A stretch of DNA of 64,000 nt from Metellina segmentata. Lineage: Eukaryota > Arthropoda > Arachnida > Araneae > Tetragnathidae. The notes below the pieces were generated by a model that saw nothing but the letters and a program-made list of their open reading frames with translations, made no database searches and had not been told where the DNA came from. Of this stretch, positions 1-64,000 are shown one piece after another (the first letter of the stretch is position 1; every line of letters starts with the position of its first letter). A program made the translations under genes and the position numbers. The stretch is from the NCBI GenBank assembly GCA_947359465.1, contig OX375874.1:89159672-89223671 (forward strand), in the 5' to 3' direction.

Positions 1-50
1 GCATCTGACTCCAGATCAGAAGGTTGCGTGTTCAAATCATGTCCGGGTCA
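1..50 (+). tRNA. tRNA-Trp-CCA: tRNA-Trp (CCA), 5' end cut by window edge
   Basis: Bases 24-73 of the tRNA. Anticodon CCA is at 11-13. It carries G26A and C63U (G51-U63 wobble in the T stem). The 5' part lies outside the window. Confidence 0.9.
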
Positions 51-507
51 TTGCTATCTTTTAATTTGGCAAACAATTCATTTGACTAATGTTAAACTAA
101 CAATTGGTGAATAATTATAAATTTAGAAATTGTTTATAATTGTTTGTTTTATATTTGATTGATTTAAACGTGAATTTTGGAAGTGAGTTCAGGATAATCG
201 AGAAGTCAAAGCCTATTAAATAACACAAATTTTTAAAACCATTCCGTTTATATAATTACATGCGAGTTTTATTTTGCATTGGATAGCTAATAGAACATTT
301 CATCCAACGCAACTAAAACAGACCGTTCAACGTGACAATGATACCAACAAATAAGAAAAATTCAATGTCATGAACTGTCAAATTTCCTTTCACGACATAT
401 GCAAGAAAAATTGAACAAATTTTTAACAACTGCATAACCATACGAATATTTTGCGAGAATTACTTTGAATTCTCATGTTCAACATTCCAGTGTTGCTAAC
501 GTGCGTG

Positions 508-579
508 GGCTCGGTGGCGCAACGGTAGCGCGTCTGACTCCAGATCAGAAGGTTGCGTGTTCAAATCACGTCCTAGTCA
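508..579 (+). tRNA. tRNA-Trp-CCA: tRNA-Trp (CCA), acceptor variant
   Basis: G68U breaks acceptor pair C5-G68, while G69A turns the U4-G69 wobble into U-A. The rest is consensus; function is uncertain. Confidence 0.9.
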
Positions 580-1035
580 TTGCAAACTTTTAATTTGGCA
601 AACAATTCATTTGACTAATGTTAAACTAACAATTGGTGAATAATTATAAATTTGAAAATTGTTTAGAATAGTTTGTTTCACATTTGATTGATTTAAACGT
701 GAATTTTGGAAGTGAGTTCAAGATAATCGAGAAGTCAAAGCCTATTAAATAACACAAATTTTTAAAACCATTCCGTTCATATAATTACATCCGAGTACTA
801 TTTTGCATTGCATAGCTAATAAACATTTCATCCAACGCAACTAAAACAGACCGTTCAACGTAACAACGATACCAACAGATAAGAAAAATTCAATGTCCTC
901 AACTGTCAAATTTCCTTTCACGACATATGCAAGAAAAATTGAACAAATTTTTAAAAACTGCATAGACATACGAATATTTTGCGAGGATTACTTTGAATTC
1001 TCTAGTTCAACATTCCAGTTTAGCTAATGTACGTG

Positions 1036-1107
1036 GGCTCGGTGGCGCAATGGTAGCGCGTCTGACTCCAGATCAGAAGGTTGCGTGTTCAAATCACGTC
1101 CGGGTCA
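1036..1107 (+). tRNA. tRNA-Trp-CCA: tRNA-Trp (CCA), D-loop variant C16U
   Basis: Only C16U in the D loop, a position where pyrimidines are normal, so likely functional. Counterpart of 4207 in the next 6-unit repeat. Confidence 0.95.
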
Positions 1108-1564
1108 TTGAAAACTTTTAATTTGACAAACAATTGCTTTGACTAATGTTAAGCTAACAATTGGTGAATAATTATAAATTTGGAACTTGTTTAGAATTGA
1201 TTGTTTTATATTTGATTGATTTAAACGTGAATTTTGGAAGTGAGTTCAGGATAATCGAGAAGTCAAAGCCTATTAAATAACACAAATTTTTAAAACCATT
1301 CCGTTTATATAATTACATGCGAGTTTTATTTTGCATTGGATAGCTAATAGAACATTTCATCCAACGCAACTAAAACAGACCGTTCAACGTGACAATGATA
1401 CCAACAAATAAGAAAAATTCAATGTCCTTAATTGTCAAATTTCCTTTCACGACATATGCAAGAAAAATTGAACAAATTTTTAACAACTGCATAACCATAC
1501 GAATATTTTGCGAGAATTACTTTGAATTCTCAAGTTCAACATTCCAGTGTTGCTAACGTGCGTG

Positions 1565-1636
1565 GGCTCGGTGGCGCAACGGTAGCGCGTCTGACTCCAG
1601 ATCAGAAGGTTGCGTGTTCAAATCACGTCCGGGTCA
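1565..1636 (+). tRNA. tRNA-Trp-CCA: tRNA-Trp (CCA), consensus copy
   Basis: Matches the array consensus at all 72 bases. It is followed by AAAATTTTAA, a T-run terminator. Counterpart of 4736, which has lost U33. Confidence 0.96.
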
Positions 1637-1655
1637 TTGCAAAATTTTAATTTGG

Positions 1656-1732
1656 CAAACAATTCATTTGACTAATGTTAAACTAACAATTGGTGAATAA
1701 TTATAAATTTGAAAATTGCTTAGAATTGTTTG
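1656..1732. repeat. 10-bp inverted repeat flanking AT-rich DNA downstream of the tRNA
   Basis: CAAACAATTC at 1656-1665 is the exact reverse complement of GAATTGTTTG at 1723-1732, with a 57-bp AT-rich interval. The pair is present in some spacers and broken in others (for example TAGTTTG or ATTGATTG variants of the right arm), so it is probably not essential. Confidence 0.5.
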
Positions 1733-2092
1733 TTTTATATTTGATTGATTTAAACGTGAATTTTGGAAGTGAGTTCAGGATAATCGAGAAGTCAAAGCCT
1801 ATTAAATAACACAAATTTTTAAAACCATTCCGTTCATATAATTACATCCGAGTACTATTTTGCATTGCATAGCTAATAAACATTTCATCCAATGCAACTA
1901 AAACAGACCGTTCAACGTGACAACGATACCAACAAATAAGAAAATATCAATGTCCTCAACTGTCAAACTTCCTTTCACGACATATTCAAGAAAAATTGAA
2001 CAAATTTTTAAAAACTGCATAGACATACGAATGTTTTGCGAGAATTACTTTGAATTCTCATGTTAAACATTCCAGTGTTGCTAACGTGCGTG

Positions 2093-2164
2093 GGCTCGGT
2101 GGAGCAACGGTAGCGCGTCTGACTCCAGATCAGAAGGTTGCGTGTTCAAATCACGTCCGGGTCA
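2093..2164 (+). tRNA. tRNA-Trp-CCA: tRNA-Trp (CCA), C11A variant
   Basis: C11A breaks D-stem pair C11-G24 and alters the A box (TGGAGCAACGG). One of twelve C11A copies spread over the window; counterpart of 5264. Confidence 0.93.
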
Positions 2165-61497: not shown

Positions 61498-61569
61498 GGC
61501 TCGGTGGCGCAACGGTAGCGCGTCTGACTCCAGATCAGAAGGTTGCGTGTTCAAATCACGTCCGGGTCA
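61498..61569 (+). tRNA. tRNA-Trp-CCA: tRNA-Trp (CCA), consensus copy
   Basis: Full match to consensus; followed by TCGAAAAGTTTTAATTTG, with the T-run kept. Confidence 0.96.
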
Positions 61570-62026
61570 TCGAAAAGTTTTAATTTGACAAACAATTGAT
61601 TTGACTAATGTTAAACTAACAATTGGTGAATAATTATAAATTTGGAACTTGTTTAGAATTGATTGTTTTATATTTGATTGATTTAAACGTGAATTTTGGA
61701 AGTGAGTTCAGGATAATCGAGAAGTCAAAGCCTATTAAATAACAGAAATTTTTAAAACCATTCCGTTTATATAATTACATGCGAGTACTATTTTGCATTG
61801 GATAGCTAATAGAACATTTCATCCAACGCAACTAAAACAGACCGTTCAACGTGAAAACGATACCAACTAATAAGAAAATATCAATGTCCTCAACTGTCAA
61901 ACTTCCTTTCACGACATATTCAAGAAAAATTGAACACATTTTTAAAAACTGCATAGACATACGAATATTTTGCGAGGATTACTTTGAATTCTCGAGTTCA
62001 ACATTCCAGTTTTGCTAATGTACGTG

Positions 62027-62098
62027 GGCTCGGTGGCGCAACGGTAGCGCGTCTGACTCCAGATCAGAAGGTTGAGTGTTCGAATCACGTACGGGTCA
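62027..62098 (+). tRNA. tRNA-Trp-CCA: tRNA-Trp (CCA), C50A + A57G with C66A
   Basis: Same changes as 59910, 2,117 bp upstream. Confidence 0.89.
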
Positions 62099-62555
62099 TT
62101 GAAAACTTTTAATTTGACAAACAATTGATTTGACTAATGTTAAACTAACAATTGGTGAATAATTATCAATTTGGAACTTGTTTAGAATTGATTGTTTTAT
62201 ATTTGATTGATTTAAACGTGAATTTTGGAAGTGAGTTCAGGATAATCGAGAAGTCAAAGCCTATTAAATAACAGAAATTTTTAAAACCATTCCGTTCATA
62301 TAATTACATGCGAGTACTATTTTGCATTGCATAGCTAATAGAACATTTCATCCAACGCAACTAAAACAGACCGTTCAACGTAACAACGATACCAATAGAT
62401 AAGAAAAATTCAATGTCCTTAACTGTCAAATTTCCTTTCACGACATATGCAAGAAAAATTGAACAAATTTTTCACAACTGCATAACCATACGAATATTTT
62501 GCGAGAATTACTTTGAATTCTCATGTTCAACATTCCAGTGTTGCCAACGTGCGTG

Positions 62556-62627
62556 GGCACGGTGGCGCAACGGTAGCGCGTCTGACTCCAGATCAGAAGG
62601 TTGCGTGTTCAAATCACGTCCGGGTCA
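62556..62627 (+). tRNA. tRNA-Trp-CCA: tRNA-Trp (CCA), acceptor variant U4A
   Basis: GGCACGG: A4 opposes G69, a mismatch in place of the U4-G69 wobble. Relative of 56211. Confidence 0.9.
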
Positions 62628-63083
62628 TTGCAAACTTTTAATTTGGCAAACAATTCATTTGACTAATGTTAAACTAACAATTGGTGAATAATTATAAATT
62701 TGAAAATTGTTTAGAATTGTTTGTTTTATATTTGATTGATTTAAACGTGAATTTTGGAAGTGAGTTCAGGATAATCGAGAAGTCAAAGCCTATTAAATAA
62801 CACAAATTTTTAAAACCATTCCGTTCATATAATTACATCCGAGTACTATTTTGCATTGCATAGCTAATAAACATTTCATCCAACGCAACTAAAACAGACC
62901 GTTCAACGTAACAACGATACCAACAGATAAGAAAAATTCAATGTCCTCAATTGTCAAATTTCCTTTCACGACATATGCAAGAAAAATTGAACAAATTTTT
63001 AAAAACTGCATAGACATACGAATTTTTTGCGAGGATTACTTTGAATTCTCGAGTTCAACATTCCAGTTTTGCTAATGTACGTG

Positions 63084-63155
63084 GGCTCGGTGGCGCAACG
63101 GTAGCGCGTCTGACTCCAGATCAGAAGGTTGAGTGTTCGAATCACGTCCGGGTCA
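63084..63155 (+). tRNA. tRNA-Trp-CCA: tRNA-Trp (CCA), C50A + A57G family
   Basis: Family changes only; last of eight copies. Confidence 0.92.
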
Positions 63156-63612
63156 TTGAAAACTTTTAAATTGACAAACAATTGATTTGACTAATGTTAA
63201 ACTAACAATTGGTGAATAATTATCAATTTGGAACTTGTTTAGAATTAATTGTTTTATATTTGATTGATTTAAACGTGAATTTTGGAAGTGAGTTCAGGAT
63301 AATCGAGAAGTCAAAGCCTATTAAATAACAGAAATTTTTAAAACCATTCCGTTCATATAATTACATGCGAGTACTATTTTGCATTGCATAGCTAATAGAA
63401 CATTTCATCCAACGCAACTAAAACAGACCGTTCAACGTAACAACGATACCAATAGATAAGAAAAATTTAATGTCCTTAACTGTCAAATTTCCTTTCACGA
63501 CATATGCAAGTAAAATTGAACAAATTTTTAACAACTGCATAACCATACGAATATTTTGCGAGAATTACTTTGAATTCTCAAGTTCAACATTCCAGTGTTG
63601 CAAACGTGCGTG

Positions 63613-63684
63613 GGCTCGGTGGCGCAACGGTAGCGCGTCTGACTTCAGATCAGAAGGTTGCGTGTTCAAATCACGTCCGGGTCA
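63613..63684 (+). tRNA. tRNA-Trp body with UCA anticodon: predicted UGA suppressor
   Basis: Identical to the array consensus except C34U, so the anticodon at 63645-63647 is UCA. All stems, U33, G37, discriminator A73, A and B boxes and the TTTT terminator are intact, so nothing in the sequence predicts loss of expression or folding. It would read UGA, and UGG by wobble. Charging depends on whether the host tryptophanyl-tRNA synthetase accepts UCA; mitochondrial enzymes do, cytosolic ones much less. The body is not a selenocysteine tRNA: there is no 8-pair acceptor and no long variable arm. Confidence 0.92.
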
Positions 63685-64000
63685 TTGCAAACTTTTAATT
63701 TGACAAACAATTCATTTGACTAATGTTAAACTAACAATTGGTGAATAATTATAAATTTGGAAATTGTTTAGAATTGTATGTTTTATATTTGATTGATTTA
63801 AACGTGAATTTTGGAAGTGAGTTCAGGATAATCGAGAAGTCAAAGCCTATTAAATAACAGAAATTTTTAAAACCATTCCGTTCATATAATTACATGCGAG
63901 TACTATTTTGCATTGCATAGCTAATAGAACATTTCATCCAACGCAACTAAAACAGACCGTTCAACGTAACAACGATACCAATAGATAAGAAAAATTTAAT
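63685..64000 (+). repeat. Last, incomplete spacer at window edge
   Basis: The first 316 bp of a normal spacer, ending at GAAAAATTTAAT. It resembles the spacer after 60439 and shows that the array continues to the right. Confidence 0.95.

Follow-up and report, generated by a model that had tools for sequence, protein, structure and literature searches.

The window analysed here, a stretch of 64,000 nucleotides, is filled from end to end (positions 1–64000) by a tandem array of units of about 529 bp, each carrying one tRNA gene on the plus strand. The array is satellite-like in its evolution, and it probably arose from a single ordinary eukaryotic tRNA-Trp gene with its flanks, most of the present copies being surplus. 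Its units are tandem and mosaic, they are tied together by multi-unit duplications, and mutations in single tRNA copies show no filtering for structure. As 119 full units can be aligned at one locus, the array constitutes a natural experiment on massive tRNA gene redundancy.

Layout and content of the array

The array is confirmed as real by ARAGORN, by Rfam and by the spacing of its units. ARAGORN detects 120 complete tRNA genes (complete in length, not necessarily in structure), all on the plus strand, the first at 508–579 and the last at 63613–63684. With Rfam family RF00005, 121 matches exceed the gathering score; the additional one is a plus-strand copy at 1–50 (32.1 bits) whose 5' end is cut off by the window edge. 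The 121 anticodon stems are 527–533 bp apart in 119 of the 120 intervals; the sole interval of 678 bp results from a perfect 148-bp tandem duplication within one spacer (17222–17518, plus strand), visible in both the repeat and the spacing analyses. A sample full unit, at 1036–1564 on the plus strand, starts with the tRNA gene (1036–1107) and continues with the spacer, which has a T4 run shortly 3' of the gene. The initial annotation had described at least 120 complete genes in one orientation, about 529 bp apart and filling the window, and this description is borne out: the genes lie head to tail at constant spacing, as in a single-tRNA satellite-like array. Because the first and last bases of the window both lie inside the array, which continues past either end, its edges fall outside and 64 kb is a partial view of its size.

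What else does the unit contain? An Rfam search for a second gene (E up to 1; 1701 bases, comprising three tRNA copies and spacers) returned nothing above cut-off besides the tRNAs, the one other match scoring 14.2 bits against a family cut-off of 65 bits. Nor is there a sign of a coding frame in the consensus unit, where the longest stop-free run is 60 amino acids, compared with 61.9 ± 14.3 in shuffles. Exact searches of genome-contig and viral-contig collections did not recover a 31-base word from the spacer, and a search of the viral contigs did not recover a 55-base word from the tRNA; near-host records may be missing from these collections. As to a sub-period on the nucleosome scale, the autocorrelation of AA/TT/TA steps, computed with no control, is small at lags 171, 176 and 192 (0.071–0.075), which rank among the top twelve but below lags 20, 57 and 61; a third of the unit length is 176 bp. 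The longest fully invariant run is 11 bases (–46 to –36), and since about 63% of spacer sites are invariant, approximately one such run is expected by chance (a rough hand calculation).

It is extremely improbable that the unit is a mobile element in tandem, be it a tRNA-derived SINE or an LTR element whose LTR contains a small-RNA gene. Helenus LTR elements are reported to harbour genes for small RNAs, and tandem arrays are seen for one of their families, LTR-11_DR (PMC10886601). However, a plus-strand primer-binding site is absent from the unit when the array's own tRNA-Trp is taken as the primer (best match 9/16, against a mean of 8.8 in shuffles), and a 13/16 match on the minus strand sits in the tRNA gene itself. 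The direct repeats within one unit are only 19 and 13 nt long, although a unit made of an LTR plus internal sequence needs no two LTRs. The dispersed copies with target-site duplications that mark a SINE are absent from the window, where the units abut head to tail.

The tRNA gene and its variant copies

The consensus of the 119 units has a full cloverleaf, a CCA anticodon, A73, G1-C72, no encoded CCA and a T-run terminator. Judging from these features it is a sound eukaryote-type tRNA-Trp gene, under identity rules that we take to hold for eukaryotic tRNA-Trp. A73 with G1-C72, and the lack of a CCA encoded 3' of the gene, speak against an origin in bacteria, phages or organelles. The exact consensus tRNA is present in 31 of the 119 full units; every stem pair is kept in 62, at least one is broken in the other 57, and a T4–T5 run lies 8 nt downstream of the gene in 116. 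Among the 120 complete genes, 118 have the CCA anticodon of tRNA-Trp and two have TCA, for which ARAGORN gives the label SeC. One of the latter (51449–51520, plus strand; ARAGORN and alignment) has two more changes, each breaking a stem pair, while the other (63613–63684, plus strand; ARAGORN and Rfam) is otherwise consensus in a by-eye comparison. The earlier statement that the array is made only of tRNA-Trp units is thus correct for the 118 CCA genes, but it overlooks the two TCA copies and the broken pairs in nearly half of the full units. Such arrays can harbour variants with an anticodon matching a stop codon.

Are the individual copies under selection? The tRNA has accumulated 47 distinct derived states, compared with 39.7 ± 5.3 for composition-matched spacer, and 27 of the 47 break a stem pair, compared with 21.5 ± 2.9 when mutations are simulated from spacer rates with no filtering; no stem pair is changed on both sides. 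Mutations in the tRNA are therefore as many as the matched spacer predicts and pairs are not spared, so that single copies look nearly neutral, and the filtering for structure that would characterize a functional family is not seen. Massively redundant copies have shed structure without visible filtering, and the consensus remains intact.

A different signal comes from the frequencies of the derived states, and it speaks against most copies being surplus. At a cut of 12% of copies, none of the 47 tRNA states is common, whereas 34 of the 203 spacer states are (Fisher p 0.0007), at 15% the figures are 0/47 and 33/203 (p 0.0012), and tRNA diversity is 0.030, below the 0.058 of composition-matched spacer (P 0.019), all of these p-values being weakened by linkage between sites. 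On the other hand, 41 of the 529 circular 72-bp windows contain no common variant either, and diversity is as low as that of the tRNA in 60 of the 314 windows that consist of spacer alone. The absence of common tRNA variants may point weakly to constraint acting on the pool of copies, and the rare derived states, the low diversity and the kept T4–T5 run together hint at possible selection for function.

If there is such selection, it could act on dosage, the many copies meeting a heavy demand for tRNA-Trp in some tissue or stage and possibly being silent elsewhere, as in the Arabidopsis Ser/Tyr cluster, for which root-cap activity and silence in most tissues are described (PMC12308677). The intact consensus gene, the 31 exact copies, the nearly universal terminator and the lack of common tRNA variants would all agree with this; however, new mutations in the copies are unfiltered for structure and at least one pair is broken in so many of them that a dosage array is unlikely. 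The initial annotation considered translational demand a poor explanation, which fits the decay of the copies, although the exact consensus genes would still allow for demand.

A structural role is quite improbable, the proposal being that evenly spaced TFIIIC/Pol III sites act as a barrier, boundary or anchor. With the A and B boxes taken at their usual positions in a tRNA gene, 94 of 119 copies have the exact consensus in the A-box region and 103 in the B-box region, and the 529-bp spacing is steady, but no further binding site common to the units came to light. For the human tRNA repeat at 1q23.3, a role as a boundary has been proposed (PMC4041453). It is a long shot that the array is under selection as a chromosome element, its tRNA-Trp gene working chiefly as a TFIIIC/Pol III binding site every 529 bp with translation secondary; if true, tRNA structure may decay while the promoter boxes and the spacing survive. 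The production of tRNA fragments, which the initial annotation also raised, is conjecture.

Relatedness of the units

Mean identity among the units is 95.2%. Adjacent units are 94.96% identical, slightly below the value for shuffled order (95.20 ± 0.12), whereas identity is raised between units six (96.05) and eight (96.12) apart, and the best match of a unit is typically several units away. The window contains 104 maximal exact repeats of at least 300 bp, the longest of which, at 5510 bp, occurs at 22922–28431 and 27154–32663, both on the plus strand. As the offset is 4232 bp, or eight units, the two copies overlap and constitute a tandem of an eight-unit block. A fixed-length higher-order repeat is rejected, since the best-matching lag shifts along the array. 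Linkage among common variant sites falls from a mean r2 of 0.41 (<20 bp) to 0.05 (>200 bp), and the 31 common sites define 64 haplotypes in the 119 units: the units are mosaics. Higher identity at six and eight units than next door, long exact duplications and linkage decay are what unequal exchange and gene conversion would produce, and these are the processes we infer.

Could mis-assembly have created the length from a few real units? The exact duplications of up to 5510 bp could partly be an assembly loop. However, 64 haplotypes with decaying linkage cannot be produced by duplicating a single unit or a handful of them, and even if 22922–32663 is a loop, the array outside it stays diverse, making an artefact very improbable.

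The surplus-satellite reading would then run as follows. One ordinary tRNA-Trp gene with its flanks would have founded the array, which unequal exchange and gene conversion presumably amplified and partly homogenised. Pol III may transcribe some of the intact copies; the majority, being surplus, would each drift, with any selection acting on the pool and not on single genes. The idea of a satellite whose monomer holds a Pol III gene, put forward in the initial annotation, agrees with the multi-unit duplications, the mosaic units and the near-neutral decay of the copies, and the earlier interpretation as a whole is partly supported. This cautions against taking tRNA gene counts and codon-supply models at face value, as satellite copies can account for many of the predicted genes.

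Comparison with known tRNA arrays

The array joins the large arrays of tRNA genes that have been described before in other eukaryotes, and its implied rarity was overstated, since massive arrays of a single tRNA have been published, including one of tRNA-Trp. By 2010, according to a survey, Entamoeba was the sole report of tandem tRNA repeats; its tRNA gene arrays are in tandem (PMC2652664), like the present one. The human 1q23.3 tRNA VNTR likewise consists of tandem units that carry tRNA genes and are highly identical, but it has a GC-rich 7.3-kb unit with five tRNA genes, CTCF binding and 9–43 units (PMC4041453). In the Arabidopsis SYY cluster, tRNA genes also lie in tandem repeats, but these are Ser and Tyr genes, which most tissues silence and the root cap keeps active, whereas the present array is known from sequence alone (PMC12308677). 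The maize tRNASAT_ZM, named as satellite DNA, is a satellite array related to tRNA that spans 91.95 kb, although in a plant (PMC10335936). The ncRNA tandem arrays of Hydractinia, unlike the single array here, encode tRNAs for each of the 20 amino acids as well as further ncRNAs (PMC11067881).

Phytophthora infestans has monomeric single-tRNA tandem arrays of similar unit size, with 271 copies of tRNA-Cys in a 513-nt unit; unequal crossing-over has been proposed for its arrays, copy numbers agree with read depth, and 20 potential suppressor tRNA genes are reported (PMC9584435). There, however, tRNA-Trp is found in Thr-Trp-Ser multi-gene units and not alone, and monomeric copies on the same chromosome are nearly identical, compared with about 95% here (PMC9584435). 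In Nippostrongylus brasiliensis, the VeCTR consists of close to 150 tandem tRNA-Trp repeats, with a sequence after the tRNA gene that its authors call species-unique (PMC5765664). Its unit is about 200 bp, as opposed to 529 bp, but in both arrays, as described, each tandem unit carries one tRNA-Trp gene (PMC5765664).

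Layout and copy number

ARAGORN predicts 120 complete tRNA genes, every one on the + strand of the window, and 119 of the 120 gene-to-gene spacings fall between 527 and 533 bp, which bears out the initial annotation of at least 120 complete genes in one orientation at about 529 bp, the length of the consensus unit. (Rfam gives 121 tRNA matches, including a cut copy at 1-50 beyond ARAGORN's 120.) Neither edge of the array lies within the 64-kb window. The array itself is missing from the Tandem Repeats Finder listing because the longest period there is 500. The single outlying interval, of 678 bp, contains a perfect 148-bp tandem duplication (17222-17518) inside one spacer; since its two copies are identical, it is apparently recent.

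The array had also been described as made only of tRNA-Trp units. That holds for the 118 complete genes with anticodon CCA, but not for the two that carry TCA (starts 51449 and 63613). The copy at 63613-63684 (+ strand) otherwise equals the consensus by eye and scores 66.8 bits in Rfam, and that at 51449-51520 (+ strand) has two further changes. The predicted TCA anticodon would pair with UGA stop codons, provided that the tRNA is made and charged.

The tRNA gene and its spacer

The consensus 72-mer forms a cloverleaf with 21 of 21 stem pairs, three of them G-T, of which the acceptor stem has two and the T stem one. Its minimum-energy fold recovers the acceptor, D and T stems with the anticodon stem shifted, and the folding z-score is merely -1.17, with equal folding in 21 of 200 shuffles. 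The Rfam matches, in which complete copies score 35.8 to 67.2 bits, are better evidence for a tRNA than minimum-energy folding. The most degraded complete copy (50917-50988) has 35.8 bits, against 48-67 for the remaining ones.

The evolution statistics cover 119 units, as neither the truncated copy at the start nor the last one (63613) has a complete unit. No CCA is encoded at the gene end, G1, C72 and A73 are jointly kept in 115/119 units, and the first T4 or T5 run lies 8 nt past the gene in 116/119 (it is absent within 40 nt in the other three). By the identity rules for such tRNAs, these features are consistent with a tRNA-Trp of the eukaryotic cytosol and its Pol III terminator. Bases -12 to -1 of the tRNA occur in two main versions, CTAATGTACGTG (46/119 units) and CTAACGTGCGTG (40/119), which mark two intermixed sub-types.

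In the spacer, an Rfam scan of 1701 bases turned up no second RNA family, and no open frame is longer than expected by chance. With an observed/expected ratio of 1.39 over the window and 1.24 for the consensus spacer, CpG is not depleted, a pattern that would suit a host without CpG methylation in the germline.

Probable exchange among units and possible weak constraint on the tRNA pool

How are the units related? Over consensus columns they average 95.2% identity; over all alignment columns, in a set of 120 units taken in another phase, the average is 94.7%. Adjacent units share a little less identity (94.96%) than shuffled ones do (95.20 +/- 0.12), and identity is higher at lags of 6 and 8 units (96.05 and 96.12). 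The array contains 104 maximal exact repeats of at least 300 bp, the longest (5510 bp) being 8 units apart. The 31 common-variant sites define 64 haplotypes in the 119 units, with a mean r2 of 0.41-0.43 within about 50 bp and 0.05 beyond 200 bp. Lag identity, exact repeats and linkage decay are together the signature of multi-unit unequal exchange and gene conversion, the mechanism that we infer.

The tRNA holds 47 distinct derived states against 39.7 +/- 5.3 predicted from composition-matched spacer, and 27 of the 47 break stem pairs, against 21.5 +/- 2.9 simulated with spacer mutation rates. At least one pair is broken in 57/119 copies, no copy has a stem pair changed on both sides, and 31/119 match the consensus exactly. 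Given these counts and the unfiltered pair breaks, new mutations within a given copy look neutral.

For the pool of copies, the commonest tRNA derived state is found in 13/119, and none of the 47 reaches 12%, against 34/203 in the spacer (Fisher p 0.0007; 0.0012 at a 15% cut and 0.013-0.014 at 8-10%). Mean diversity in the tRNA, 0.030, is below that of composition-matched spacer (0.058, P 0.019); all these p-values are optimistic because sites are linked. The tRNA ranks 63rd among 529 circular windows, 41 of the 529 windows of its size have no common variant, and diversity is no higher than in the tRNA in 60 of 314 all-spacer windows. The 72-bp window with the strongest conservation (mean diversity 0.012) begins about 174 bp from the gene start and overlaps a spacer block at about 165-270 bp from the tRNA start (e.g., about 1201-1306), a 105-bp gap without common variants that is conserved above the tRNA. 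Constraint on the pool is weak at most.

Nature of the array and comparison with known tRNA arrays

The array is best read as a satellite that expanded from a tRNA-Trp gene, its copies mostly spare. The multi-unit repeats, linkage decay and neutral-looking changes favor the earlier proposal of a satellite whose monomer contains a Pol III gene. Less probably, the array might supply tRNA-Trp in a special tissue, or have a chromatin role.

Published arrays include an Arabidopsis Ser/Tyr cluster that is silenced in most tissues but active again in root tips (PMC12308677), and a human tRNA VNTR for which a boundary role was proposed (PMC4041453). A 92-kb tRNA satellite array is described in maize (PMC10335936), and N. 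brasiliensis has a tRNA-Trp repeat of about 200 bp in nearly 150 copies and a tRNA-Ser repeat in 90 (PMC5765664). In P. infestans, array copy number matches read depth, with unequal crossing-over suggested and 20 tRNA genes predicted as potential suppressors (PMC9584435). The literature searched, compared by description, gave no report of this exact unit. Given these arrays in other eukaryotes, the one in the window belongs to an already known kind.
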